Positions 25,172 to 36,761 of a stretch of DNA of 36,761 bases are shown piece after piece. The notes under the pieces are model-generated. The model was not told the origin of the DNA. It saw nothing but the letters and a program-made list of their open reading frames with translations, and did no database searches. A program made the translations under genes and the position numbers. Each line of letters opens with the position of its first letter. The stretch's first letter is position 1. Origin of the DNA: Candidatus Gastranaerophilales bacterium (GTDB lineage: Bacteria > Cyanobacteriota > Vampirovibrionia > Gastranaerophilales > Gastranaerophilaceae). The stretch covers positions 1 through 36,761 of the forward strand of contig CALUTG010000012.1 in NCBI GenBank assembly GCA_944323615.1, in the 5' to 3' direction.

Positions 25172-26038
25172 TTATCTTAAATTCTTAATATATGAAAAAT
25201 ATTCATTATTTTTATACTTTTCAGCTCCGTGCTGAATTGTTGCTTTATCTAAAAACCCTACCCTGTAGGCAACTTCTTCTAAGCAGGCAATTTTAATTCC
25301 CTGATTTTCTTCAATTGTCTGGACATACTGTCCTGCTTTTAGCAAGGAAGCATGTGTTCCTGTGTCAAGCCATGCGAATCCGCGGCCTAAAAGTTCTGTA
25401 TGCAGATGTCCTTTTTCAAGATAAATTCTATTTAGGTCAGTGATTTCAAGCTCTCCTCTGGAGGATGGCTTAAGAGCCTTTGCATATTCAATAACTTTGT
25501 TATCATAGAAATAGAGTCCGGTGACTGCATAGTTAGATTTTGGGTTTTGAGGTTTCTCTTCTATTGAAAGTGCCTTCCCATTTTTATCAAATTCAACAAC
25601 CCCGAATCTTTCAGGGTCTTTTACGTAGTAGCCGAATATTGTTGCAATACCATTGTCGGCTCTTTGTACTGATTCTTTTAATGATTTTGAAAATCCTGCA
25701 CCGTAGAAAATATTATCCCCCAGAATCATTGCAACGGAATCGTTTTTGATGAATTCTTCTCCCAAAATAAAGGCTTGAGCTAAACCGTCCGGACTTGGCT
25801 GTACTTTGTATGAAAAGTTAACTCCAAATTGAGAGCCGTCTCCTAATAAGATTTGAAAGTTTTTTATATCATGCGGAGTGGAGATAATAAGAATATCTTT
25901 TATTCCGGCGAGCATTAAAACGGATATCGGATAATAGACCATAGGTTTATCGTATACAGGCAAAAGCTGTTTTGACACAACCATTGTGCTCGGGTATAAT
26001 CTTGTTCCGCTGCCTCCGGCTAATACTATACCTTTCAT
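25172..26038 (-). CDS. rfbA: Glucose-1-phosphate thymidylyltransferase
   Basis: 288 aa from the ATG at 26038, chosen because GGAGG lies directly upstream; the frame extends 13 codons further. Converts glucose-1-phosphate and dTTP to dTDP-glucose, the first step of the dTDP-rhamnose route. The nucleotide-binding loop [64 protein letters not shown] and [13 protein letters not shown] are classic RmlA motifs. It is the last gene of the rfbC-rfbB-rfbA operon. Confidence 0.96.
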
Positions 26039-26051
26039 TGATTCCCTCCTT

Positions 26052-27032
26052 TTACACAAGAACTTTCTTGTTTTCAATGGATTTTATCCAGTCCTGATTA
26101 TTTAAATACCAGTCAATTGTTATTTTTATTCCTTCTTCAAATGTTATTGAAGGTTCCCAGCCTAATTCAGAAGTTATTTTGTTATTTGCAATGGCATAAC
26201 GTCTATCGTGTCCCAATCTGTCCTCAACGTACTGAATAGAAGATTCATCCTTGCCCATTGCTTCCAAAATAAGACGTGTTATTTCAAGGTTAGTCTTTTC
26301 GTTGTGTCCGCCGATATTGTAGATTTCACCAACCTTCCCCTTATGCAGGACAACATCAATAGCCTCGCAGTGATCATATACATAGAGCCAGTCGCGGACA
26401 TTTAAGCCGTCGCCGTAGACGGGAACTTTTTCCCCTTTAAGGAGTTGAGAAATAAAGAACGGAATAAGTTTTTCAGGATACTGGTATGGTCCGTAGTTAT
26501 TAGAACATCTTGTGTTTAAGGTAGGCAGCCCGTAAGTTTCTCTGTAGGCTCTTACAAGAAGATCGGCACTGGCTTTACTTGCTGAATACGGGCTGTTTGG
26601 AGCAAGCGGGGTCGTTTCATAAAAATAACCGGTTTCGCCAAGTGAGCCGTAGACTTCATCCGTAGAAATCTGCAGGAATCTTTCTATCCCAATTTCTTTG
26701 CTTGCCTGCAGCAAGTTTAAAGTTCCCTGAATATTAGTTTCAATAAATATTTCAGGATGTTTTATAGAATTATCCACGTGAGATTCGGCAGCAAAGTTGA
26801 TAACACAATCACTCCCCGCTATTAATTCACATACAAGTTTTTTGTCACATATATTTCCGTGAATAAACGTGTAATTAGGATTATTTTCAATATCTTTTAA
26901 ATTCTCAATATTACCGCAATATGTCAGGGCATCAAGGTTAATAATTTTGTAATCCGGATGTTTTTTGAGCTCATGTCTGATAAAGCAGCTGCCTATAAAT
27001 CCGGCTCCGCCTGTTACAAGTAATACTGTCAT
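26052..27032 (-). CDS. rfbB: dTDP-glucose 4,6-dehydratase
   Basis: 326 aa extended short-chain dehydrogenase that makes dTDP-4-keto-6-deoxyglucose. NAD-binding TGGAGFIGS (7-15), the active-site trio T124-D125-E126 (QISTDEVYG) and Y149xxxK153 ([11 protein letters not shown]) are intact, and [19 protein letters not shown] and [16 protein letters not shown] confirm the RmlB subfamily. The start ATG overlaps the rfbC stop by 1 nt and lies 14 nt upstream of rfbA, so the three genes are co-transcribed. Confidence 0.97.
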
Positions 27033-27589
27033 TAGATTAATTCCTTTTTGTTAATTTCACTTAATTTAGGCTGAACCATGTCCTTATCAGACAGAATTGG
27101 TTCAAAATCGATACCCCAGTCGATATTTATATCTTTGTCGTTCCAGAGAACCCCTCTATCAGCTTGAGAATTATATTCTCCGCTTGCTTTGTAAAGGATT
27201 TCAGCTTCTTTTGATAATACAACAAATCCATGGGCAAAACCATCGGGTATAAAGAGCATATATTTGTTTTCTTCTGATAATTCAACTTTTACATATTTAC
27301 CGAAAGTTTTTGAATCAGGTCTTATGTCTACTGCAACATCATATATGCGGCCTTTGGTACATCTTACAAGCTTGGCTTGTCCGTATGGCTTTACTTGATA
27401 ATGCAAGCCTCTTAACACATGGGCTGCAGACTTGGAGTGGTTATCTTGATTGAATTCAACAGTAATTCCGTTTGCAAAAAAGTCTGATTTTTTGTAGCTT
27501 TCCAGAAAAAAGCCTCTATTGTCCCCAAAAACCTTTGGCTTTACAAGTATTATATCTTTAATTTCCTGTTTTTCAAATTCAAACGGCAT
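27032..27589 (-). CDS. rfbC: dTDP-4-dehydrorhamnose 3,5-epimerase
   Basis: 185 aa from the ATG at 27589, preceded by AAAGGAG; a longer frame to 27634 crosses the promoter. Cupin-fold enzyme that epimerises dTDP-4-keto-6-deoxyglucose. The core contains FGDNRGFFLESYK, SKSAAHVLRGLHYQ with catalytic H63, KLVRCTKGRIYDVAVDIRP with K73, and FIPDGFAHGFVVLS; Y133 is the likely acid. It is the first gene of the operon, behind a strong promoter. The fourth enzyme, RfbD, is not encoded in the window. Confidence 0.96.
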   Translation of the reverse strand: MPFEFEKQEIKDIILVKPKVFGDNRGFFLESYKKSDFFANGITVEFNQDNHSKSAAHVLRGLHYQVKPYGQAKLVRCTKGRIYDVAVDIRPDSKTFGKYVKVELSEENKYMLFIPDGFAHGFVVLSKEAEILYKASGEYNSQADRGVLWNDKDINIDWGIDFEPILSDKDMVQPKLSEINKKELI

Positions 27590-27605
27590 ATCTACTCCTT
27601 TGATT

Positions 27606-27634
27606 ATTATACTATCTATAATTACATAGCACAA
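27606..27634 (-). promoter_or_regulatory. Sigma-70-type promoter of rfbCBA
   Basis: On the minus strand -35 TTGTGC (27634-27629) and consensus -10 TATAAT (27611-27606) are separated by exactly 17 nt. Transcription would begin near 27599, just upstream of the AAAGGAG site of rfbC. Confidence 0.75.
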
Positions 27635-27681
27635 TCGGGTAGTAGTTGATAATTAACCGTATGGCTAAAATGTTTCATTTG

Positions 27682-27690
27682 TGCTAAACT
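27682..27690 (+). promoter_or_regulatory. Extended -10 box 8 nt before the 27699 start codon (leaderless candidate)
   Basis: TG-C-TAAACT is an extended -10 form (TG at 27682-27683, hexamer 27685-27690) followed by 8 nt and the ATG at 27699. No SD sequence is present for that ATG or for the in-frame GTG at 27681. Confidence 0.4.
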
Positions 27691-27698
27691 TCATAACG

Positions 27699-29369
27699 AT
27701 GAGCAGCGAATATTCATACTGGCAGGATTTTTTTAAATCGGAAAAATTTAAGAGAAATCTAAATAGTCTTAAAGGGAAACTAAAAAATAAAAAAGTAGTT
27801 TTCTATTGTAACGGTATTTATTTTGATGCTTTAAGCGACTTATATAATTTATCTGAATATTTTTCTGTAGTAGGAGTTTCTGATATAAGGTATGAACAAA
27901 GTTGTGAGCCGGATTATAAAGGTTATAAGTGTATTAAGCCTTCTGAATTAAGACACTCCGGAGCAGATTGTGTGATTATATCCTCTCCAAATCCGGATTT
28001 TATAAAAGAATATTTACAGAAAAATAACCTTGTAAAATCAGTTATTCTGCCTATTTATAAACCCCGGGAGAATCTTTTCTTTAGATTCGGGCTCGCTTTG
28101 GAGTATTTTAAAGTTACGAAAAGTCTGTACAGAAGTATAAAATACTGCTTGTGTTGCACGGAAGAAGAATTGCAGACAAAAATTAATTATGAGAAAGTCT
28201 TACAGAGGGTAAAGAAGAGGGGGAAATCAGGAGAAAAACTCAGTGTACTTTTTGTTTGTGAAGAAAATCAAAAATGGGGTTATCAGTTTGTATATGAGCT
28301 GCTGAAAAAAGATCCTGGATTTGAAGTTTTGCCGGTTGTTTTATATCCGATTATTTCAAAAAACAGAGTGGACTTTACACAGGAAAAGAATAAAGAATTT
28401 TTTGCAAAACAAGGAGTAGAATCTGTTGACGGGTATGATTACGACAAAAAAACAAAAATTGATTTAAAAACATTTGCTCCGGACATAGTTTTTTACCAGC
28501 AGCCCTGGTATCTTGAAGGAGAAAATCATCCTGTAAATCTTTCAAAATACGCGCTTACAATAATGATACCGTACGGATATACGACATTGAGCGAAAAAAA
28601 TTGGGGTTCGGATGCTGTAAGACGGGTTTATTCAAATCTGTGGATGTTTTTTTCTGAGAGTAAATATCATAACAAGTTTTATGAAAAGGCTGCGGGAATG
28701 AGGCATAAAGACAATTTGCTCGCTACCGGAACCCCGAAACTTGATTACTACCATATGCCTGTAAAACAGGAATTTGAAGACCTGTGGAAAGGCGGGAAAA
28801 ACCGTATTATCTGGGCGCCTCACCATTCAATAAACAATACGGGGCTTTGTATGAGTACTTTTGAAGAGTATTATAAGTTTTTACTTGATTTTGCAAAAAA
28901 TCACAGAGAGTATTCTTTTGTTGTCAAACCTCATCCGGCTCTGAGAAGTGCATGTGCTTCTCAGCGATTTATGACGGAAGAGGAGTACGATGCGTATATG
29001 GAAGAGTGGAATAATCTTCCAAACGCGAGTGTTTATACGGAAGGAAATTATTTTGATATTTTTAAAACTTCGGACGTCTTGGTAACAGACTGTTCATCAT
29101 TCTTTGCGGAATATTTTCCGACAGGAAACCCTATTGTTCTGCTAGATAAGAAAAATCGCGCTCCGTTTGATAAATTCGGAAAGCAGCTTGAAAAAGGGTT
29201 TTATAAAGTAAATAAACCTGAGGAGCTTCCTGTACTACTTGAAAATATATTATTGAAGAATGATGACCAGCTTGTAAACACAAGAAGAAAAATAAAAAAT
29301 AAGGTATTTTATCTTCCCGCACAAAGTGTTTCAAGTTTAATTGTTAAATTTTTGCTATCTAAGATTTAG
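27699..29369 (+). CDS. CDP-glycerol glycerophosphotransferase-like protein (TagB/TagF family) with N-terminal Rossmann-like domain
   Basis: 556 aa from the ATG at 27699; a GTG at 27681 is in frame but overlaps the -10 box. Residues about 25-110 are a Rossmann-like domain (KNKKVVFYCNGIYFDALSDL, VVGVSDIRYE, GADCVIISSPNPDF) of the kind also found on the FkbM proteins in this locus. About 185-550 is the TagB/TagF-type GT-B fold: LSVLFVCEENQKWGYQFVYE, TIMIPYGYTTLSEKNWGSDA, IIWAPHHSINN, FVVKPHPALR and VLVTDCSSFFAEYFPTGNPI. Family members add phosphopolyols to polymers. Acceptor and donor are not predictable. It is convergent with the large minus-strand operon, ends overlapping by 11 nt. Confidence 0.88.
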   Translation: MSSEYSYWQDFFKSEKFKRNLNSLKGKLKNKKVVFYCNGIYFDALSDLYNLSEYFSVVGVSDIRYEQSCEPDYKGYKCIKPSELRHSGADCVIISSPNPDFIKEYLQKNNLVKSVILPIYKPRENLFFRFGLALEYFKVTKSLYRSIKYCLCCTEEELQTKINYEKVLQRVKKRGKSGEKLSVLFVCEENQKWGYQFVYELLKKDPGFEVLPVVLYPIISKNRVDFTQEKNKEFFAKQGVESVDGYDYDKKTKIDLKTFAPDIVFYQQPWYLEGENHPVNLSKYALTIMIPYGYTTLSEKNWGSDAVRRVYSNLWMFFSESKYHNKFYEKAAGMRHKDNLLATGTPKLDYYHMPVKQEFEDLWKGGKNRIIWAPHHSINNTGLCMSTFEEYYKFLLDFAKNHREYSFVVKPHPALRSACASQRFMTEEEYDAYMEEWNNLPNASVYTEGNYFDIFKTSDVLVTDCSSFFAEYFPTGNPIVLLDKKNRAPFDKFGKQLEKGFYKVNKPEELPVLLENILLKNDDQLVNTRRKIKNKVFYLPAQSVSSLIVKFLLSKI

Positions 29370-30474
29370 CAAGCTCTTTTGGTATTGCATATAATACGGT
29401 ATCCAAATTGCATCCGAGATAATGTCCCAGTCTGAATTCATAGTTGGTAAGCCATTCTTGAAGCATTAGCGGGATAGTATAAAAATGTTCATCTGAATGG
29501 TAGATGGAAATAGCCAGCTGCGGTCTTTGTTCAATAAGTGTTCTTTTTGCTCCTTTTAGTACATTGATTTCGGCATTTTCAACATCCAGCTTTATATAAT
29601 CTATTTTTAGTCCGCGCTCAGCAGCAAAGTTATCTATATTAACCGTTTCTATTTTAATTATTTTGTGCGGACGATGGGTATCGGGTTTTGTTTCAACTAT
29701 TGCAGAACCGCCCTTGGCCTGTGTTTCTTCTCTAAACTCAAGAGTGGTTTCTTCTTTCCATAACCCTTTTTTTATAATTTCAATACGCTTTTCGTCTTTA
29801 ATAATTAAATCTATGATGTTGTCTTTAAAGTTATCGTAGCAAGGTTCAAACATATAAACCTTTTCAATATTAGGAAAATTTTGAATAAAAGTCAGCGCAG
29901 TAAATCCGTCAAGCCCGCCTCCGTCTATTGCTGTTTTTATCGCATTTTTGTTAATGAACTCAAAGTAATGTTCAAGCGCAACCTTCCCGTTGTATCTTTC
30001 AGGGTAATGTTTATTATAGTATGCCTTTATTTCAGGTTCATATTTCATACTGTTGGTTCGGGCTTTTGCCAAAAATTTAAAGAGATTTCTGTCTTTAGAG
30101 GTTTTAAAGACCTTTGCGGTTTTATTAATATCCCATTTTGGTTTTTCTTTTTGACAAAATTCATCGAAATCTTTTTTATTTGGAATAATAACATTTTTAA
30201 GTCCGAAACTTTTCATAAGTGTTCCGAGATAATACCTTGCAGAATATGACGCCGGTATTCCAGTATCAATTTCATTCAAATGTTCTGATAATTGTTTTGG
30301 TTTATAAAGAGGCAGCCCCTTTAAAGTTCCCGTTACGGATGAATCAATGAAAAATTTTACCTCGGTATCAGGTCTTTGTTTTTTGAGTTCTTCATATATT
30401 CTTTCCGCAATCCGGCTGGAACCCCATATACAGATTTTAGCGTTCTCTTTTATCTCCTTAAAACAATTATGCAT
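29359..30474 (-). CDS. FkbM-family methyltransferase with N-terminal Rossmann-like domain (copy 1)
   Basis: 371 aa. Residues 8-100 (ENAKICIWGSSRIAERIYEE, FFIDSSVTGTLKGLPLYKP) form a nucleotide-sugar-binding-like Rossmann unit. About 185-365 is the FkbM methyltransferase domain: SAM-binding TAIDGGGLDGFTALTF, VYMFEPCYDNFKDNI, IDYIKLDVENAEINVLKGAK and RPQLAISIYHSDEHFY. Family members O-methylate sugars or related hydroxyls. It is a close paralogue of the gene at 33005 (shared endings FRLGHY and VLYAIPKEL), pointing to duplication within the locus. AAAGGA precedes the ATG. Last gene of the minus-strand operon. Confidence 0.87.
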   Translation of the reverse strand: MHNCFKEIKENAKICIWGSSRIAERIYEELKKQRPDTEVKFFIDSSVTGTLKGLPLYKPKQLSEHLNEIDTGIPASYSARYYLGTLMKSFGLKNVIIPNKKDFDEFCQKEKPKWDINKTAKVFKTSKDRNLFKFLAKARTNSMKYEPEIKAYYNKHYPERYNGKVALEHYFEFINKNAIKTAIDGGGLDGFTALTFIQNFPNIEKVYMFEPCYDNFKDNIIDLIIKDEKRIEIIKKGLWKEETTLEFREETQAKGGSAIVETKPDTHRPHKIIKIETVNIDNFAAERGLKIDYIKLDVENAEINVLKGAKRTLIEQRPQLAISIYHSDEHFYTIPLMLQEWLTNYEFRLGHYLGCNLDTVLYAIPKELAKS

Positions 30475-30490: not shown

Positions 30491-31702
30491 TTATTTTGTA
30501 GTTAGCATTTTTGTTAAAATGCTTTTCATTGTATTGTAAGAGTATTCTTTAAGAAAATTAATTCTGTCTTCGCTCAGACCTTGCTTCATTGCGATTTCAA
30601 GCTGATTAACAATATAAACGCTGTCATTAAATTTATCGGGTGTGATGAATGTAGAGGCTGTTTGAATAAATTCTGAGAATCTGGTAAGTTTCTTATTCCA
30701 TACTATTCCGACAGTAGGAATTCCGAGGGATGTAGCTATTATGTTTGCGTGTAATCTCGAGGCTGCAACGGCTTTGTAAGTTTTTATTCTGTTAACAAGC
30801 TGGTCTGCACTTGTTGGTTTTGGTGCAATTAAATTAGCAGGTTTATTCAAAGTCTTTAGGAGTTTTAATCCGAATTCATAATCCACATCGCTTCCGTTGC
30901 AGAACAATTCCCACTTGTATCCCCGTCTGTCAATCTCTTTGATTATATTTAACTGCATATTTTCAGCTTCTTTGCAGCTAAACATCAGTTCGCTGTCCGA
31001 AAAAATCTTGGGACGGATAATACCTATTCCTATTAGGTCTGAATTATCCTTTTTTACGTTATAGCATTCTTGAGTCCATAATGCGGGATCAAGAATTTGC
31101 TTACACATCTTTTTATTGTACACCAACTCCTTTAGATAGTTTATATCATCTCTTGTAGTAACAGCTTTAACACATTTTTGGTCCAATAAATACTTGTATA
31201 AAAGATGCTCAATAAATACAGACGGCTTTTCGATACCTATAGCATTAAAATAAACCGGAATTTTATGTTTTTTGCAATATTCAATAACAGGATAAATTCC
31301 TCGCCATAGCTGCATATATGAATGTTGAAAAATTCCGCCGCCTGCAAAAATTACAACATCTGCATCTTTGAGCATACTATTGTAGTACTCCTGAATTTCA
31401 GGATTTGTTTTTGTATATTTTGCCCAGAAATAAATTGATGCCAGAAAAAATAAGTTTTCGGTTAGTTTTTGGGATAGTATTGATTTATAGTACAATATGT
31501 CCAAAACTTTTCTTAGTGTTCGCTGAAATTGTTTAAGCTCTTTGTAATGTACTGACGGCGGAATCATATTCCCTATCTTAATTGCAGAAGGTTCTTGAAT
31601 TTCTTCGGTAATTCTGTGCAATAAAAAATCAAACGTATCACTGATGGCTTTGTCCCCCAGTAATGACGGTTCTTCAACATAAAGTGATACAATATTTTTC
31701 AT
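30491..31702 (-). CDS. Polysaccharide pyruvyltransferase family protein (WcaK/CsaB-like)
   Basis: 403 aa. The family (polysaccharide pyruvyl transferase, PF04230-type) is recognised by ADVVIFAGGGIFQHSYMQLW near residue 110, IPVYFNAIGIEKP, VTTRDDINYLKELV, DPALW, and the C-terminal AVAASRLHANIIATSLGIPT with VGIVWNKKLTRFSEFI. Such enzymes attach ketal pyruvate from phosphoenolpyruvate to sugars, giving negative charge. The N-terminal YVEEPSLLGDKAISDTFD is also typical. Four nt separate it from the upstream methyltransferase. There is no signal or membrane segment; it acts in the cytoplasm on lipid-linked glycan. Confidence 0.87.
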   Translation of the reverse strand: MKNIVSLYVEEPSLLGDKAISDTFDFLLHRITEEIQEPSAIKIGNMIPPSVHYKELKQFQRTLRKVLDILYYKSILSQKLTENLFFLASIYFWAKYTKTNPEIQEYYNSMLKDADVVIFAGGGIFQHSYMQLWRGIYPVIEYCKKHKIPVYFNAIGIEKPSVFIEHLLYKYLLDQKCVKAVTTRDDINYLKELVYNKKMCKQILDPALWTQECYNVKKDNSDLIGIGIIRPKIFSDSELMFSCKEAENMQLNIIKEIDRRGYKWELFCNGSDVDYEFGLKLLKTLNKPANLIAPKPTSADQLVNRIKTYKAVAASRLHANIIATSLGIPTVGIVWNKKLTRFSEFIQTASTFITPDKFNDSVYIVNQLEIAMKQGLSEDRINFLKEYSYNTMKSILTKMLTTK

Positions 31703-31705
31703 AAT

Positions 31706-32263
31706 TTAATTAAAAACCTCAGCTTTAGTTATATTAGGGAAATTCCGTTTTTTGAAAAAGCAATATGATTCTCCATCGTGGTAATCTGTATGTACAATGG
31801 GAACTTCTAAAACGAAGCCGTTATCCTCAAATATTTTAACAAGTTCATTCACGGTCATATTGTTAACCCATATTACCGAACGCTTTGTTGTTATTTCTTT
31901 AAAGTGATAAGAACATACGACATAGTTCATACAGGATGCAATATTTTTTATAAAGGATTCGACATCATAAATATATTCAATAATTCCGCTGCATAAAGCA
32001 AGGTCAGCCTGTTCTTTGTAGAATTCCCCTTTATTAAAATCTACTGTTATAGTAGTCGGGCAATGTTTGTATACATCAACCGGAATATATTTTATGTTCT
32101 CCGGAATTAATTTGCTTGCCCATTGGTTACCGCATCCTAAATCCGTTATTGAATTTATTTTACTTAAATCAAGACACGAAAAGAGGTATTCTAATCGTGT
32201 AAAAAAAGAGTGTTTATACTGTAAATGCTCTGTCCATGTATTTTTATTAAGAGTTGCTGTCAT
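31706..32263 (-). CDS. Small class I SAM-dependent methyltransferase-like protein
   Basis: 185 aa. The Rossmann core begins ITDLGCGNQWASKLIPENIK (SAM loop DxGCG), then YIPVDVYKHCPTTITVDFNK with the acidic residue after strand 2, and ADLALCSGIIEYIYDVESFI and MNYVVCSYHF. The end WVNNMTVNELVKIFEDNGFV is followed by EVPIVHTDYHDG, as in other sugar methyltransferases. It lacks an N-terminal extension, so it is a minimal enzyme. It is tightly placed between the acyltransferase (4-nt gap) and the pyruvyltransferase (4-nt gap). Substrate unknown. Confidence 0.85.
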   Translation of the reverse strand: MTATLNKNTWTEHLQYKHSFFTRLEYLFSCLDLSKINSITDLGCGNQWASKLIPENIKYIPVDVYKHCPTTITVDFNKGEFYKEQADLALCSGIIEYIYDVESFIKNIASCMNYVVCSYHFKEITTKRSVIWVNNMTVNELVKIFEDNGFVLEVPIVHTDYHDGESYCFFKKRNFPNITKAEVFN

Positions 32264-32266
32264 CTA

Positions 32267-33004
32267 TTAAATCAAATCCTTTATGTATATTTTCTTTGTA
32301 TCCCAATCTTCAGGGAAGCATTTGTTCCAATTTACATTTCTTTTGACGACTTTAGCAGGAATTCCTGCCAGTATGCAATTAGTGTCATTAAATTCTTTTG
32401 TAACAATGGATCCTGCTGCGACTGTACAGTTATCCGGAATTTTACTGCCTTTTAGCAGCAGAGCTCGATGTGCTATCCAGACATGATTTCCAATTTCAAT
32501 ACTTTTTGAAGGATTTAATAGTTCATATGAGTCCAGATCATATATAGTATGTGAGTCTGTTGTTCTTAGCATAACTCCGTAACTCATCATACAACCGGAG
32601 CCGATTTTTATTTCAGTGTTGTTTGTATAGTGCATTATAAAAAAGGCTTCTTGTACAGTAAAATTTTCTCCGCATATAAATTTAGTATTATCTCCGAGAA
32701 ATATTCCTGCTGAACGGATCCCGGATGATCTGCCTATTTTTACAACATTATTGCTGCCTCTGCATATAACATCCATTTTTGCTATTCTATAAGGCTCTTT
32801 TATCTCTATATAATTGTTTTTCCCTAAAAATTTAACCTTAAGGCCCTTTATTTTTGGATTTTTAATTACGGTACCATCTAATTTAATCACAACAATTCTG
32901 TTGTTGCTGTTCACTCTTTTTAATTTTTGAGCAATCTGATATAAGATAGTACGAATAAATTTGTTTTTCCAAATCAATAATGGTATAGAATACTTAAGTT
33001 TCAT
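32267..33004 (-). CDS. Hexapeptide-repeat acyltransferase (left-handed beta-helix)
   Basis: 245 aa. The middle (about 60-215) is a left-handed beta-helix of hexapeptide repeats (NVVKIGRSSGIRSAGIFLGD, TEIKIGSGCMMSYGVMLRTT, IEIGNHVWIAHRALLLKGSK, NCTVAAGSIVTKEF), with the substrate loop DSHTIYD and the classic end CILAGIPAKVVKRNVNW. This is the O-acetyltransferase type (WcaF/maa/colanic-like) that uses acetyl-CoA. It follows the FkbM gene with no gap and precedes the methyltransferase by 4 nt. Confidence 0.9.
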   Translation of the reverse strand: MKLKYSIPLLIWKNKFIRTILYQIAQKLKRVNSNNRIVVIKLDGTVIKNPKIKGLKVKFLGKNNYIEIKEPYRIAKMDVICRGSNNVVKIGRSSGIRSAGIFLGDNTKFICGENFTVQEAFFIMHYTNNTEIKIGSGCMMSYGVMLRTTDSHTIYDLDSYELLNPSKSIEIGNHVWIAHRALLLKGSKIPDNCTVAAGSIVTKEFNDTNCILAGIPAKVVKRNVNWNKCFPEDWDTKKIYIKDLI

Positions 33005-34132
33005 TTATTTTACCAGCTCCTTAGGAATAGCATAAAGAACCGTTTCACAAATAGTTTCTCTATAGTGTCCGAGCCTGAATTCATAATCAGGCAGGAGTTC
33101 TTTTAAATATACAGGGATTTCATAAAACTGTGCTGCCGAGTGGTAGATAGAAATGGCAAGCTGAGGTCTGTGCTTAAGAAGAGTGTTTTTAGCTCCCTCT
33201 AAAGCTTCCTGTTCTGCATTTTCCAGATCCATTTTTATAAAATCAATTTTCTCAATATGATTTTGTTCAACAAAACTGTCTATAGAAACAGCATCAACTG
33301 TTATTATTTGAGCAGGACGCTTAATATCAGGTTTCTTTTCAACGACTGCAGAAGCTGCTTTAAAGCTGAACTCTTCTCTGAATGAAAGCTGGGTATCTTC
33401 TTTCCATAAAGCTTTTTGTATAATTTCGATTTCAGGATGCCTTTGTATTAATTTATCAAATAAATTATTTTTGAATGAATTGTAGCAAGGCTCAAAAGCA
33501 TACACCTTTTTACATTTCGGGAGCATTTGTAATGTTATTAATGAATGTATCCCGTTGCAAGCTCCGCCGTCAATAGCAGTTTTAATGGCATCTTTGTTTA
33601 TAAATTCAAAATAATGTTCAAACGGGTAAAGATCAATTCTGTTCGGATATTTTTTATTGTAATATTTTTCAATTTCCGGTTCATATTTTTTCTTATTATC
33701 TCGTGCTTTTGCAAGGAATCTGTATAAATTTCTTTCGGAAAGAGTTTTAAATATTTTAGCAGATTTTTCCACATTCCATTTATTCTTTTTGGTATCTTCT
33801 TTCGGGAGAAAATCTTTCGTTATAAGAACAATATTTTTTATACCAAATGCCTTAAGGATGAATTCCATATAAAACCTGTGTGCGTATGATGCTACCAATA
33901 CGGTATCAAATTCATTTAGATGCGCATCTAAATCCTGAGCGAGATAAACAGGCAATCCTTTCAACTCTCCGGAATTCTTAGAGTCTATAAAAAATTTCAC
34001 GTCTATGTCAGATCTTAGTTCCTTAAGTTTATCAAATAACTGTTCTGCAGTTTTGTTTGAGCCGTATATGCAAATTTTTGAATTCTTTGCAAGATTGTTA
34101 AATAGTTTTGTGTACTTATCCTCTTTAAGCAT
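33005..34132 (-). CDS. FkbM-family methyltransferase with N-terminal Rossmann-like domain (copy 2)
   Basis: 375 aa from the ATG at 34132, with GGAGAGGG just upstream; a TTG five codons earlier overlaps that site and is excluded. Residues 15-105 are a Rossmann-like unit (NSKICIYGSNKTAEQLFDKL, FFIDSKNSGELKGLPVYL), and about 195-370 an FkbM domain (IDGGACNGIHSLITL, VYAFEPCYNSFKNNL, IDFIKMDLENAEQEALEGAK, RPQLAISIYHSAAQFYEIPV). It shares architecture and many motifs with the gene at 29359. The start overlaps the radical SAM stop by 8 nt. Confidence 0.88.
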   Translation of the reverse strand: MLKEDKYTKLFNNLAKNSKICIYGSNKTAEQLFDKLKELRSDIDVKFFIDSKNSGELKGLPVYLAQDLDAHLNEFDTVLVASYAHRFYMEFILKAFGIKNIVLITKDFLPKEDTKKNKWNVEKSAKIFKTLSERNLYRFLAKARDNKKKYEPEIEKYYNKKYPNRIDLYPFEHYFEFINKDAIKTAIDGGACNGIHSLITLQMLPKCKKVYAFEPCYNSFKNNLFDKLIQRHPEIEIIQKALWKEDTQLSFREEFSFKAASAVVEKKPDIKRPAQIITVDAVSIDSFVEQNHIEKIDFIKMDLENAEQEALEGAKNTLLKHRPQLAISIYHSAAQFYEIPVYLKELLPDYEFRLGHYRETICETVLYAIPKELVK

Positions 34133-35126
34133 TATTTCCCTCTCCAATTAAATCTTCTATTTCTTTCCAGTTTTTCCCGATATTGTACATTGCAAGAACA
34201 GTATCTCTTTTGTCTAAACCGAAACTATCACAATTATAGCATAATTTTACATCTTTTCTCCCGTTTAGGAGCGATTGCCTGAGAGCTTTATATTTTTCAC
34301 CTCTCCAGATATCAATAAGTTTTTCTTTTGTTAAATCACCCATTGTCATTTGTCCAAGAGCATCATTACAACACAATGAAAGCTGCCCTGTAGGACGTAT
34401 TACAATCTGTGAAAAAGGCCAGAGGCAGGAACTTTTTATTCTGTAGATGTGTCTTCTGTTCTTAGCATTACCGGCTCTGTTATTTCTTAACATATGCTTA
34501 TCTATGAGTTGTATTTTTACTTTCTTCTTAAGCTCTTCGTCTTTAAGGCAGTATTCCGCAATTTCTTTTATTCTCGGATATAGGTGTTTTTCTCCCTCAT
34601 AATAATTGTCAATAACCATATAATCCAAATGTTCAATAAGTTCTTTAAACTTTTCCAGATTTAAAAGAATACCGTTTGTAAACAAAAAATTCTTTGCATC
34701 AGGCAGTTCTTCTTTTATATGTTTCACAAAACCATAGATTCTTTTATCAAGAAGCGGTTCATTGTTGGAGTATGCCGATATATATCCGCTGTAGCCAAGT
34801 TCTTTAAGTTGTCCGATGATGGAATAGAAAAGTTCGTCATCCATAACCTTGTATTCTCTTTTGTCAAGATGCTTATTTACCGGACAAAAATCGCAATCTC
34901 CGTTACAGCGGTTTAGGGTCTCGATTTCTATTGCTGTAGGGAGCGGAAAGGGTTCCTGCTGCATAAGAGACTGTAATACCTTTCGCAATTCTGTGTTTCT
35001 TTTTTTATCTCGTTTTTTGCGTCTAACATTGAGTACAAAAATTTCATAAAGCGTATTATTTTTACTAAGTATTTCAAAATAACGTTTCTTTAATGTTACT
35101 AAAAATGATAGTATCGTAAATTTCAT
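34125..35126 (-). CDS. Radical SAM / SPASM-domain protein
   Basis: 333 aa from the ATG at 35126; an upstream GTG at 35138 overlaps the previous stop (GTGA) but lies directly against the AGAGAG site, so the ATG spacing fits better. The radical SAM cluster motif is ETLNRCNGDCDFCPV with C74, C78 and C81. The barrel contains the SNNEPLLD and FLFTNGILL segments (GEPLL-like). A C-terminal SPASM-type set follows: C234, C252/C253 (GQLSLCCNDA), and C296 and C299 (LCYNC). The mixture of iron-sulfur sites suits oxidation or epimerisation of an alcohol or peptide. Its place in a glycan operon points to a sugar substrate, which is inference. Confidence 0.88.
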   Translation of the reverse strand: MKFTILSFLVTLKKRYFEILSKNNTLYEIFVLNVRRKKRDKKRNTELRKVLQSLMQQEPFPLPTAIEIETLNRCNGDCDFCPVNKHLDKREYKVMDDELFYSIIGQLKELGYSGYISAYSNNEPLLDKRIYGFVKHIKEELPDAKNFLFTNGILLNLEKFKELIEHLDYMVIDNYYEGEKHLYPRIKEIAEYCLKDEELKKKVKIQLIDKHMLRNNRAGNAKNRRHIYRIKSSCLWPFSQIVIRPTGQLSLCCNDALGQMTMGDLTKEKLIDIWRGEKYKALRQSLLNGRKDVKLCYNCDSFGLDKRDTVLAMYNIGKNWKEIEDLIGEGNNA

Positions 35127-35134
35127 ATAATTTA

Positions 35135-36319
35135 TCACTCTCTGCTTTTGTCTGTTATCAATTTTTCTATTAATTCGACTGCTCTTGCCGAAGAATTTCC
35201 GTCATCTACGCAGCCTTTTCCCCGTAAAAAATCTTCTACTTTTGATTTATATATATTATCTTCAAAATTTTCAATGTTCAATGCCAGTTCTGTATTATTT
35301 TGTGCCACAGGAAACGGCGTTTCATATAATGAGTAATAAAATCCTCTTTCGTGATTATATCTTTCAATATCCGGCGCATAAATAAACCCCGGCTTTCTTG
35401 TCAGTACAAAATCAAAAATACAGCTTGAATAATCTGTAACAGCAGCATCTGCACAGGCAAGGAGTTCCTGAACATCATCATAGGAAGATGCATCATAAAC
35501 ATAATCTTTCCCTTGCAGATCTGGTTTTGATTTTATATTCCTATGCATTCTTACAAAAATTACCCAATCTCCGCCGAATTTTTTCTCCAGAGCATTTTTT
35601 AAGTTTTCGTAGTCTAAATCGTAAATTTTTGTAGAGCAGCCCTGTCGAAAAGTCGGGACATATATAAGAATATTTTTATTTTCATCAATATTATACAGCT
35701 TGCAAATATTCTGCTTTAGCCTGTTGTTTTCCTTGAAAAAGATGTCATTTCTTGCATGTCCTATTCTTAAAATTTTCCCTTCTCCCCAAAAAGCGGATTT
35801 ATACACTCCGTCTTCAAATTCGCTGTTAGACAATAAATAGTCCTGCATTTTTGCATTTTCTATAGCGTATTCCTTCCAGCTTTTAGTAGTAATAAAAGCA
35901 TTTACATCTGCTTCAATCTTTTTTATCCCAAGGGAGCCGTGCCAGGTTTGGATATAGTATTGTTCAGGTCTTTTGGTTAAATGTTTTTTGATTAATTCTA
36001 CTTTATGATAGTTATCAACCCAGATTTTTGCAGTACATAAGTCATAAAAAGCTCTGACTGATTTTATGTTGACTTTTTTTATTCCTTTGGGGAATTTAAA
36101 ATCCCCGTTCTTAGGGTTAATAAGCCAGATTAATTTTAGTTCCGGATGAGTTTTTAACAATAACTGCGCTATATATTTAGGATTACAGCCATAGCCCATG
36201 CCTGCATAGTTAGAAAAAACTATTTTCCTTGTGTTTACCGGAAAATATTTGAAAGGCATGTATTTAAAGAAATTCTTTTTACTGTGTATTATAAAAAGTA
36301 AGACTGCAAATTTAAACAT
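35135..36319 (-). CDS. CDP-glycerol glycerophosphotransferase-like protein (TagB/TagF family, second)
   Basis: 394 aa, single-domain member. Motifs: FSNYAGMGYGCNPKYIAQLL, LIWLINPKNGDFKFPKGIKK, YYIQTWHGSLGIKKIEAD, MQDYLLSNSEFEDGVYKSAF and WGEGKILRIGHARND, then NILIYVPTFRQG, WVIFVRMHRN and ACADAAVTDYSSCIFDFVLT. Members polymerise or prime phosphopolyol chains, and WHG followed by the YDSSS-like end is typical. The N-terminal hydrophobic patch (FAVLLFIIHSKKNFFKYM) may bind the membrane. It starts 1 nt from the upstream epimerase stop, and its TGA overlaps the alternative start of the radical SAM gene. Confidence 0.89.
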   Translation of the reverse strand: MFKFAVLLFIIHSKKNFFKYMPFKYFPVNTRKIVFSNYAGMGYGCNPKYIAQLLLKTHPELKLIWLINPKNGDFKFPKGIKKVNIKSVRAFYDLCTAKIWVDNYHKVELIKKHLTKRPEQYYIQTWHGSLGIKKIEADVNAFITTKSWKEYAIENAKMQDYLLSNSEFEDGVYKSAFWGEGKILRIGHARNDIFFKENNRLKQNICKLYNIDENKNILIYVPTFRQGCSTKIYDLDYENLKNALEKKFGGDWVIFVRMHRNIKSKPDLQGKDYVYDASSYDDVQELLACADAAVTDYSSCIFDFVLTRKPGFIYAPDIERYNHERGFYYSLYETPFPVAQNNTELALNIENFEDNIYKSKVEDFLRGKGCVDDGNSSARAVELIEKLITDKSRE

Positions 36320-36320
36320 T

Positions 36321-36761
36321 TTATAATTGCTCCGCCATTTTCATTGACAATATCAGACGTTCAAACATTTCATCTAAGTCAATCCATGCTTCCCAGCCTA
36401 ACTTTTCCAGCTCGGCAGTATCAAGGATAATCTTTACAATCGGATTGTAACCTCTTTCCTTGTTGTCGATTTCATATTTTACTTCAACTCCCCCTTTTTC
36501 TGCTGCAATTCCAGCCATGTCTTTTATAGAAATTGCCGTATTCGGGTTAGCAACATTATATGCAACCTGATCTTTTCCTTTAAGTAAAATTGTAAGAAGA
36601 GCGCTGACTGCATCTGTAATATAGCAGTAATTTCGTATGGTTTCCCCTTTTGTATGTAAAACAATATTAGTTTTATTAATGACAGATTTTGCAAACTGGG
36701 CAAATACTCTGTTGTCATCTTTTGTAACTCCGGCTCCGAATGTTTGTGCAAGTCTTGCAAT
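36321..36761 (-). CDS. NAD-dependent epimerase/dehydratase (SDR family), C-terminal part
   Basis: A minus-strand frame enters at 36761 and remains open to 36321, giving the last 146 residues of a longer protein cut by the window edge. Translation reads IARLAQTFGAGVTKDDNRVF, then NYCYITDAVSALLTILLKGK, QVAYNVANPNTAISIKDMAG and ILDTAELEKLGWEAWIDLDE, the C-terminal substrate domain of extended SDR sugar epimerases/dehydratases (similar to UDP-glucuronate decarboxylases and GDP-sugar dehydratases). The NAD loop and YxxxK lie outside. The specific sugar cannot be named. It starts the visible minus-strand glycan operon, 1 nt before the TagB/F gene. Confidence 0.82.
   Translation of the reverse strand: MARLAQTFGAGVTKDDNRVFAQFAKSVINKTNIVLHTKGETIRNYCYITDAVSALLTILLKGKDQVAYNVANPNTAISIKDMAGIAAEKGGVEVKYEIDNKERGYNPIVKIILDTAELEKLGWEAWIDLDEMFERLILSMKMAEQL

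Follow-up and report, generated by a model that had tools for sequence, protein, structure and literature searches.

A BtrN-like Twitch radical SAM enzyme as a candidate tailoring enzyme of a polyol-phosphate surface polymer in Gastranaerophilales

Organization of the locus and its CDP-polyol genes

The window, i.e. the whole stretch of 36,761 nucleotides from Candidatus Gastranaerophilales that was analysed, carries near its end the gene of an oxygen-sensitive Twitch radical SAM enzyme related to BtrN. Its open reading frame lies on the minus strand at 34125..35126, as the original prediction had placed it; position 35126 is that of the ATG, and the frame runs to the stop at 34125, giving 333 amino acids. 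An alternative GTG start at 35138 gives a protein of 337 residues, and residue numbers used here count from this GTG. Upstream, on the same strand, lie a gene for a TarF/TagF-like polyol-phosphate transferase (35135..36319; PF04464, E 9e-76; 161 bits with the NCBIfam TarF model, below its cut-off of 550) and the 3' end of an extended short-chain dehydrogenase/reductase (SDR; 36321..36761, minus strand), a probable CDP-ketose reductase judging from Pfam and from the PDB match of a full-length relative. Downstream follow, all on the minus strand, genes for an FkbM-family methyltransferase (33005..34147, with a TTG start at 34147 or an ATG at 34132; PF05050, E 2.7e-18), a hexapeptide-repeat acyltransferase (32267..33004; PF00132, the Maa and WbbJ models staying below their cut-offs), a class I methyltransferase (31706..32263; PF13489), a polysaccharide pyruvyl transferase family protein (30491..31702; PF04230, E 1.6e-18) and a second FkbM-family methyltransferase (29359..30474; PF05050), which is a paralogue of the first. 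The FkbM counterparts in the nearest named record, a Candidatus Gastranaerophilales MAG locus with 98% identity (L039), match both window copies, with 54-55% identity across copies. Both FkbM proteins have long N-terminal parts, Rossmann-like by eye.

Junctions within the operon range from −23 to +16 nucleotides inside the window. The radical SAM gene had been described as coupled by overlaps to both neighbours; this held on the FkbM side at either start (23 nucleotides with the TTG, 8 with the ATG), and on the TarF-like side only if the GTG start is used, which gives a 4-nucleotide overlap where the ATG leaves a gap of 8. A convergent gene at 27681..29369 on the plus strand encodes a second CDP-glycerol-glycerophosphotransferase-like protein (PF04464, E 1e-9) with a Rossmann-like N-terminal domain. 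Beyond it, three genes at 25172-27634, adjoining the locus, resemble by eye rmlA, rmlB and rmlC of dTDP-rhamnose synthesis.

The window ends (36685-36761) in 77 bases that recur exactly as bases 1-77 of a second contig from this genome (C71), and we therefore take the SDR gene and the operon to continue there. This contig holds the rest of the SDR gene, a cytidylyltransferase gene and a gene for a Rossmann-like protein of 131 residues, all assigned by their similarity to L039 (96%). The operon thus begins with the Rossmann-like protein, the cytidylyltransferase, the SDR, the TarF-like transferase and the radical SAM enzyme, and proceeds to the FkbM protein, the hexapeptide acyltransferase, the methyltransferase, the pyruvyltransferase family protein and the second FkbM protein. 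Residues 18-104 of the convergent transferase-like protein match the profile of the 131-residue protein at the operon head.

The cytidylyltransferase of L039 scored 200.9 bits against a cut-off of 166 with NF001183, a subfamily model for D-ribitol-5-phosphate cytidylyltransferase. The best PDB match of its SDR was 8v4h/8v4g (E 9.8e-52 for 8v4h, the next at 2e-30), which PMC10918830 describes as the Campylobacter jejuni reductase that forms CDP-6-D-glucitol. In the same source, pairs of PF01128 and PF01370 proteins are predicted to make CDP-glucitol or CDP-mannitol, and L039 has such a pair, a PF01128 gene followed by that of a PF01370 SDR related to 8V4H. From the homology of cytidylyltransferase and SDR, the polymer of this locus is most likely a polyol-phosphate polymer, and the glycan-operon setting proposed earlier can be specified, by homology of the neighbour genes, as a CDP-polyol/polyol-phosphate locus. 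In another relative (L098:1115-3481), SDR and TarF-like transferase are fused into one protein of 788 residues (PF01370 and PF04464), which ties the product of the reductase to the transferase; several other SDR matches sit in open frames of 722-1041 residues.

The radical SAM protein and its kinship with BtrN

Pfam matches above the curated cut-offs were obtained for both halves of the protein, with Radical_SAM at residues 73-175 (E 2.8e-11, 44.3 bits against a cut-off of 29.5) and PF13186 at residues 238-304 (E 2.2e-13), so the radical SAM assignment is not due to chance. The protein has nine cysteines (C78, C82, C85, C197, C238, C256, C257, C300 and C303). The first three form a complete CX3CX2C motif (34884..34907, minus strand), as had been claimed, and we take them to be the ligands of the [4Fe-4S] cluster that binds SAM. 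They are invariant in both alignments (A1 and A2), in one of them across 47 sequences, and motif and Pfam matches together assign the protein to the radical SAM superfamily.

Six cysteines lie C-terminal to this motif, five of which (C238, C256, C257, C300 and C303) are invariant in a 22-row alignment, C197 not being among the invariant columns. According to PMC6231123, a Twitch domain with one auxiliary cluster has the motif CX9-15GX4C-gap-CX2C, and a seven-cysteine SPASM domain with two auxiliary clusters CX9-15GX4C-gap-CX2CX5CX3C-gap-C. The Twitch spacing is present as C238-X12-G251-X4-C256 and C300-X2-C303, and none of these residues varies across the 22 rows. Only the first four SPASM positions are found; the CX5CX3C part and the final cysteine are absent and no cysteine follows C303, which rules out a full SPASM domain. 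By its motif the C-terminal domain (34230..34427, minus strand) is thus a Twitch domain for one auxiliary cluster, with C238, C256, C300 and C303 as ligand cysteines. The five cysteines reported for a SPASM region are indeed there, as these four Twitch ligands plus C257 (34368..34370, minus strand), an extra cysteine that adjoins C256; the SPASM domain itself is not.

BtrN was the best PDB match in every comparison. A search with the single sequence gave E 7.4e-26 and 94.8 bits (next entry 15.6), and a profile search of PDB sequences gave 133 bits, followed by ChlB at 28.3. An AlphaFold model built on a 47-row alignment (mean pLDDT 93.6, pTM 0.89) retrieved substrate-bound BtrN first with Foldseek (E 1.7e-20), and in VIA-align 244 of 246 residues superposed on BtrN with Z 27.8 and an rmsd of 2.3, whereas the best entry other than BtrN had Z 14.5. 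The predicted fold is thus BtrN-like across the whole core. Residues 1-60 form only two N-terminal helices in the model, a part barely probed by the fold search.

In the alignment, C238, C256, C300 and C303 coincide with BtrN C169, C187, C232 and C235, which we take to be the ligands of its auxiliary cluster, and R221 (34476..34478, minus strand) coincides with R152, presumably located at the reacting hydroxyl. The NNEPLLD motif at residues 125-131 (34746..34766, minus strand) stands where BtrN has YGEPLLC. The pocket is not retained: F188 and E189 of BtrN, which presumably contact its substrate, are replaced by C257 and N258, and judged by these two residues the protein would not be BtrN itself, a 2-DOIA dehydrogenase. 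All 38 rows of the close subfamily, which represent 37 distinct proteins because L009 is the window itself, have Arg at R221, as do 14 of 31 more distant ones; C257 is Cys in the same 38 rows and in 16 of the 31. At the position of C257 a BtrN-like Clostridia protein (L157:1471-2235) has Phe, as does BtrN; with this BtrN-type CF pair (CFND) it is a possible BtrN orthologue.

A sharp score gap that seemed to bound the subfamily (37 ORFs at 307 bits or more, the next at 141) was lost after other phyla were added, with Pseudomonadota and Clostridia members at 280, 213, 196, 178, 171, 166 and 151 bits; the profile used was trained on proteins of alignment A1, which it also scores. Sequence similarity networks are moreover said in PMC6231123 to predict function poorly in this enzyme group.

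Were the protein a SPASM-type maturase of peptides or proteins, placed among glycan genes by accident of gene order, weak matches to many peptide-maturase models would also be expected; such matches were observed, and ChlB, SuiB and anSME do come next after BtrN in the structural ranking. All these matches are far below BtrN, however, and none of the best 25 of 30 NCBIfam models reached its cut-off, RiPP-maturase models included; among the matches listed, the top one was a tungsten-cofactor maturase model, at 50.9 bits against 380. No precursor peptide ORF was found in 21 neighbourhoods of relatives, where 15 small ORFs in flanking gaps showed no likeness between loci, and the window locus leaves no space for a small ORF beside the radical SAM gene and has none that is conserved. 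The gene furthermore lies within glycan operons in all 11 Gastranaerophilales loci, and the N-terminal part of the model, where a peptide recognition element might lie, shows two helices only. We therefore rejected a peptide maturase as the main reading on the NCBIfam results, the BtrN ranking by profile and fold, and the precursor search, and consider it very improbable. The original prediction, which had noted that no precursor gene lies nearby and had favoured glycan over peptide tailoring, is borne out on both counts by these results together with the polyol-phosphate operon; neither an adjoining peptide substrate gene in relatives nor a clustering with peptide-modifying enzymes was observed. 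The protein is very probably a BtrN-like enzyme acting on a small molecule.

Distribution and genomic contexts of relatives

Among 57 near relatives, 26 had some match at E 0.001, and four, the own genome counted, had one at 48% identity or more. At E 1e-15, 13 of 383 genomes of the family had a match, and in 10 the identity was 46% or higher. The enzyme from L040 is 78% identical. All 11 Gastranaerophilales radical SAM loci carry genes for TarF- or TagF2-type polyol-phosphate transferases, and 10 of the 11 a cytidylyltransferase gene, one contig ending within the reductase gene. A reductase of the CDP-polyol type was found in 75 of the 383 genomes (E 1e-40). Of the 10 genomes that carry the radical SAM gene, 6 have this reductase (P 0.005 by a hypergeometric test, genome relatedness being ignored). 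The other four (genus g52; L099-L102) lack a separate reductase and have a fused cytidylyltransferase-SDR gene, recognised in L100 by its domains, in L099 by similarity and in L101 and L102 by clustering, which we take to resemble the bifunctional CDP-ribitol synthase Bcs1.

In 69 of the 75 reductase genomes there is no radical SAM gene. A locus without the gene (L147) has nearly the same flanks as the window operon (94% for the Rossmann-like protein, 90% for the SDR, 87% for TagF2), and four others (L148-L150 and L152), likewise without the gene, have more distantly similar ones. On the evidence of these near-identical flanks, the radical SAM enzyme is, as far as gene content tells, an exchangeable tailoring module of the CDP-polyol locus in this family. 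At L147:3665-11590 the gene and its neighbours are swapped for other tailoring genes, and the cytidylyltransferase is a fragment of 93 residues. The Rossmann-like protein at the operon head was rejected as a dedicated partner of the enzyme since it also heads these five loci. A Lachnospiraceae protein (L058/L105) has an N-terminal extension that resembles the Rossmann-like protein by eye but was not matched by the profile of the latter.

In a 50-row tree the 11 Gastranaerophilales proteins formed one clade (100/99) within a larger one that includes Lachnospiraceae proteins (100/97); the radical SAM proteins of L108 and L112 are absent from the alignments, an antisense ORF of greater length having taken the place of the gene in L112. 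In the family that includes Parablautia muri, of which the cultured strain D42-62 carries a relative, 27 of 348 genomes had a match (33-49% identity). In its class, 9 of 391 genomes had one at E 1e-20 (four shared with the family set), and in the phylum of Pelagibacteraceae 10 of 398 did (29-40% identity). The cytidylyltransferase and reductase/TarF clusters had no member in any of 12 Lachnospiraceae neighbourhoods (L041 among them). The relative is found near glycosyltransferases (L041, L105, L109), MBOAT, CotH and VTC genes (L104), DUF6044 and flavin amine oxidoreductase genes (L111) or housekeeping genes (L107, L113). Such non-polyol contexts suggest that the wider family need not use a polyol; the substrate may instead be a sugar that many glycans share.

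Two Lachnospiraceae-type sequences (L111:9504-12096 and L085:5660-8510) have a CCCD motif at 256-259 and lie beside genes for a flavin amine oxidoreductase and a DUF6044 membrane protein; this branch may possibly represent a second cassette of the enzyme family. L085 (MT835743.1) is labelled Bacteriophage sp., shares several gene clusters and the radical SAM relative with the chromosomal region L111, and is probably a bacterial fragment. It was the best of 12 records in the phage record search. The viral contigs searched held no relative of the protein, and none of the 12 records of the plasmid search covered 80% of the query. Pelagibacteraceae relatives at about 30% identity (L042, L043, L047) adjoin genes that by eye resemble those of a CMP-sugar synthetase, a short SDR and an HMGL-like aldolase.

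Candidate substrates and reactions

We estimate at roughly 45% the probability that the role of this BtrN-like Twitch enzyme is to modify one building block of a surface polymer of the polyol-phosphate, teichoic-acid-like type. The substrate is probably a unit of the polyol-phosphate polymer of the locus: enzymes for making and polymerising CDP-polyols were identified in the operon by homology, and the frequent occurrence of polyol genes without the radical SAM gene, in the 69 genomes above, argues against it. Whether as oxidation or as epimerisation of an alcohol carbon, a radical step on CDP-polyols or polyol-phosphate units, with BtrN-type chemistry as exchangeable tailoring, is a tentative proposal, which would include the gut Lachnospiraceae relatives located in glycan loci.

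Oxidation of the carbinol is the first choice because the auxiliary-cluster ligand set of BtrN is retained, and epimerisation comes close behind. BtrN is a radical dehydrogenase of butirosin synthesis. It oxidises an alcohol carbon through hydrogen abstraction followed by loss of an electron, for which its fully ligated, low-potential auxiliary cluster with four cysteines was proposed as the acceptor (PMC9012708). By analogy, the cluster at C78, C82 and C85 would cleave SAM, and the resulting 5'-deoxyadenosyl radical would take a hydrogen from the CH-OH carbon of a CDP-polyol, polyol-phosphate or sugar unit. R221 may aid deprotonation of the substrate hydroxyl, and the four-cysteine auxiliary cluster would oxidise the ketyl radical to a ketone at an inner carbon. 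The methyl-, acetyl- and pyruvyl-transferases of the operon would then complete the unit. For a polyol or sugar unit, conversion of a secondary alcohol to a ketone is the leading reading, though slightly less likely than not; that the operon has no aminotransferase, and no ketone-using reductase besides the CDP-ketose reductase, counts against it.

A radical epimerase would abstract the same hydrogen, and a thiol, for which C257 is the candidate, would return one to the other face to give a stereoisomer. Such a reaction needs no partner, in keeping with the lack of a ketone-using enzyme in the operon; C257 is moreover constant in the close subfamily, whereas BtrN and L157 have Phe. The occurrence of Cys in about half of the distant proteins, however, makes this residue look like a common trait of the fold, and with the CC pair so common we did not accept C257 as a proven hydrogen donor. 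EpeE, which acts on a peptide, appears among the Foldseek matches with C223A entries, C223 being presumably its hydrogen-donor cysteine; its Z of 13.4 illustrates how far any solved epimerase falls short of BtrN in similarity. Cysteine donors do occur in radical SAM epimerases, such as Cys249 of NeoN, which is described as flanked by Asp248 and Tyr250 and not by a ligand cysteine (PMC10991966). NeoN and EpeE share with the window enzyme a radical SAM and an auxiliary-cluster domain, and a donor cysteine is conceivable in the latter, yet with these differing flanks C257 is not clearly the counterpart of Cys249, NeoN having been compared by its published description. We regard epimerisation as unlikely in itself, though worth retaining next to oxidation.

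AprD4 represents a family of radical dehydratases/deoxygenases, and an enzyme of this kind that acted on a polyol diol, the SDR of the operon serving as its reducing partner, would give a deoxy unit. In favour of it, the operon includes an SDR, and vicinal diols are a feature of polyols. CDP-polyol synthesis already accounts for the reductase, however, which is also present in the 69 genomes that lack the radical SAM gene. Conversely, 4 of the 11 loci (L099-L102) have the radical SAM gene without a separate reductase. A deoxygenation is therefore improbable.

BtrN has so far been known from antibiotic synthesis. A sizeable BtrN-like subfamily in the surface-polymer operons of gut bacteria would imply that radical chemistry acts on the alcohol carbons of sugars or sugar alcohols within the surface polymers of commensals, yielding glycan units that escape standard pathway prediction, and the operon offers a short list of candidate substrates. 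Among the matches listed in our literature searches there was no paper on a BtrN-like radical step in glycan loci or surface polymers, none joining BtrN, radical SAM and polysaccharide or radical SAM, FkbM and capsular polysaccharide, and, among 8 of 170 matches for Gastranaerophilales and polysaccharide, none on biosynthesis.

With BtrN (2-deoxy-scyllo-inosamine dehydrogenase, PDB 4M7S/4M7T) the window enzyme shares the fold, the CX3CX2C motif, the four auxiliary-cluster cysteines and the arginine at R152. It differs by an identity of about 26-28%, a helical N-terminal extension of 60 residues, the exchanges at F188/E189 and in the YGEPLLC motif, and its place in a surface-polymer operon, whereas the BtrN gene belongs to an aminoglycoside cluster and its product acts on an aminocyclitol. 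The order of a PF01128 gene followed by that of a PF01370 SDR recurs in HS5.18/HS5.17 of C. jejuni (CDP-6-D-glucitol) and Mnp1/Mnp2 of S. pneumoniae (CDP-mannitol), for which, unlike the window operon, the passages on these pairs in PMC10918830 mention no radical SAM gene. SpeY (PDB 7WZV/7WZX), a Twitch radical SAM enzyme whose entry title contains the word 'dehydrogenase', is a distant relative, with Z 12.8 and 16% identity.
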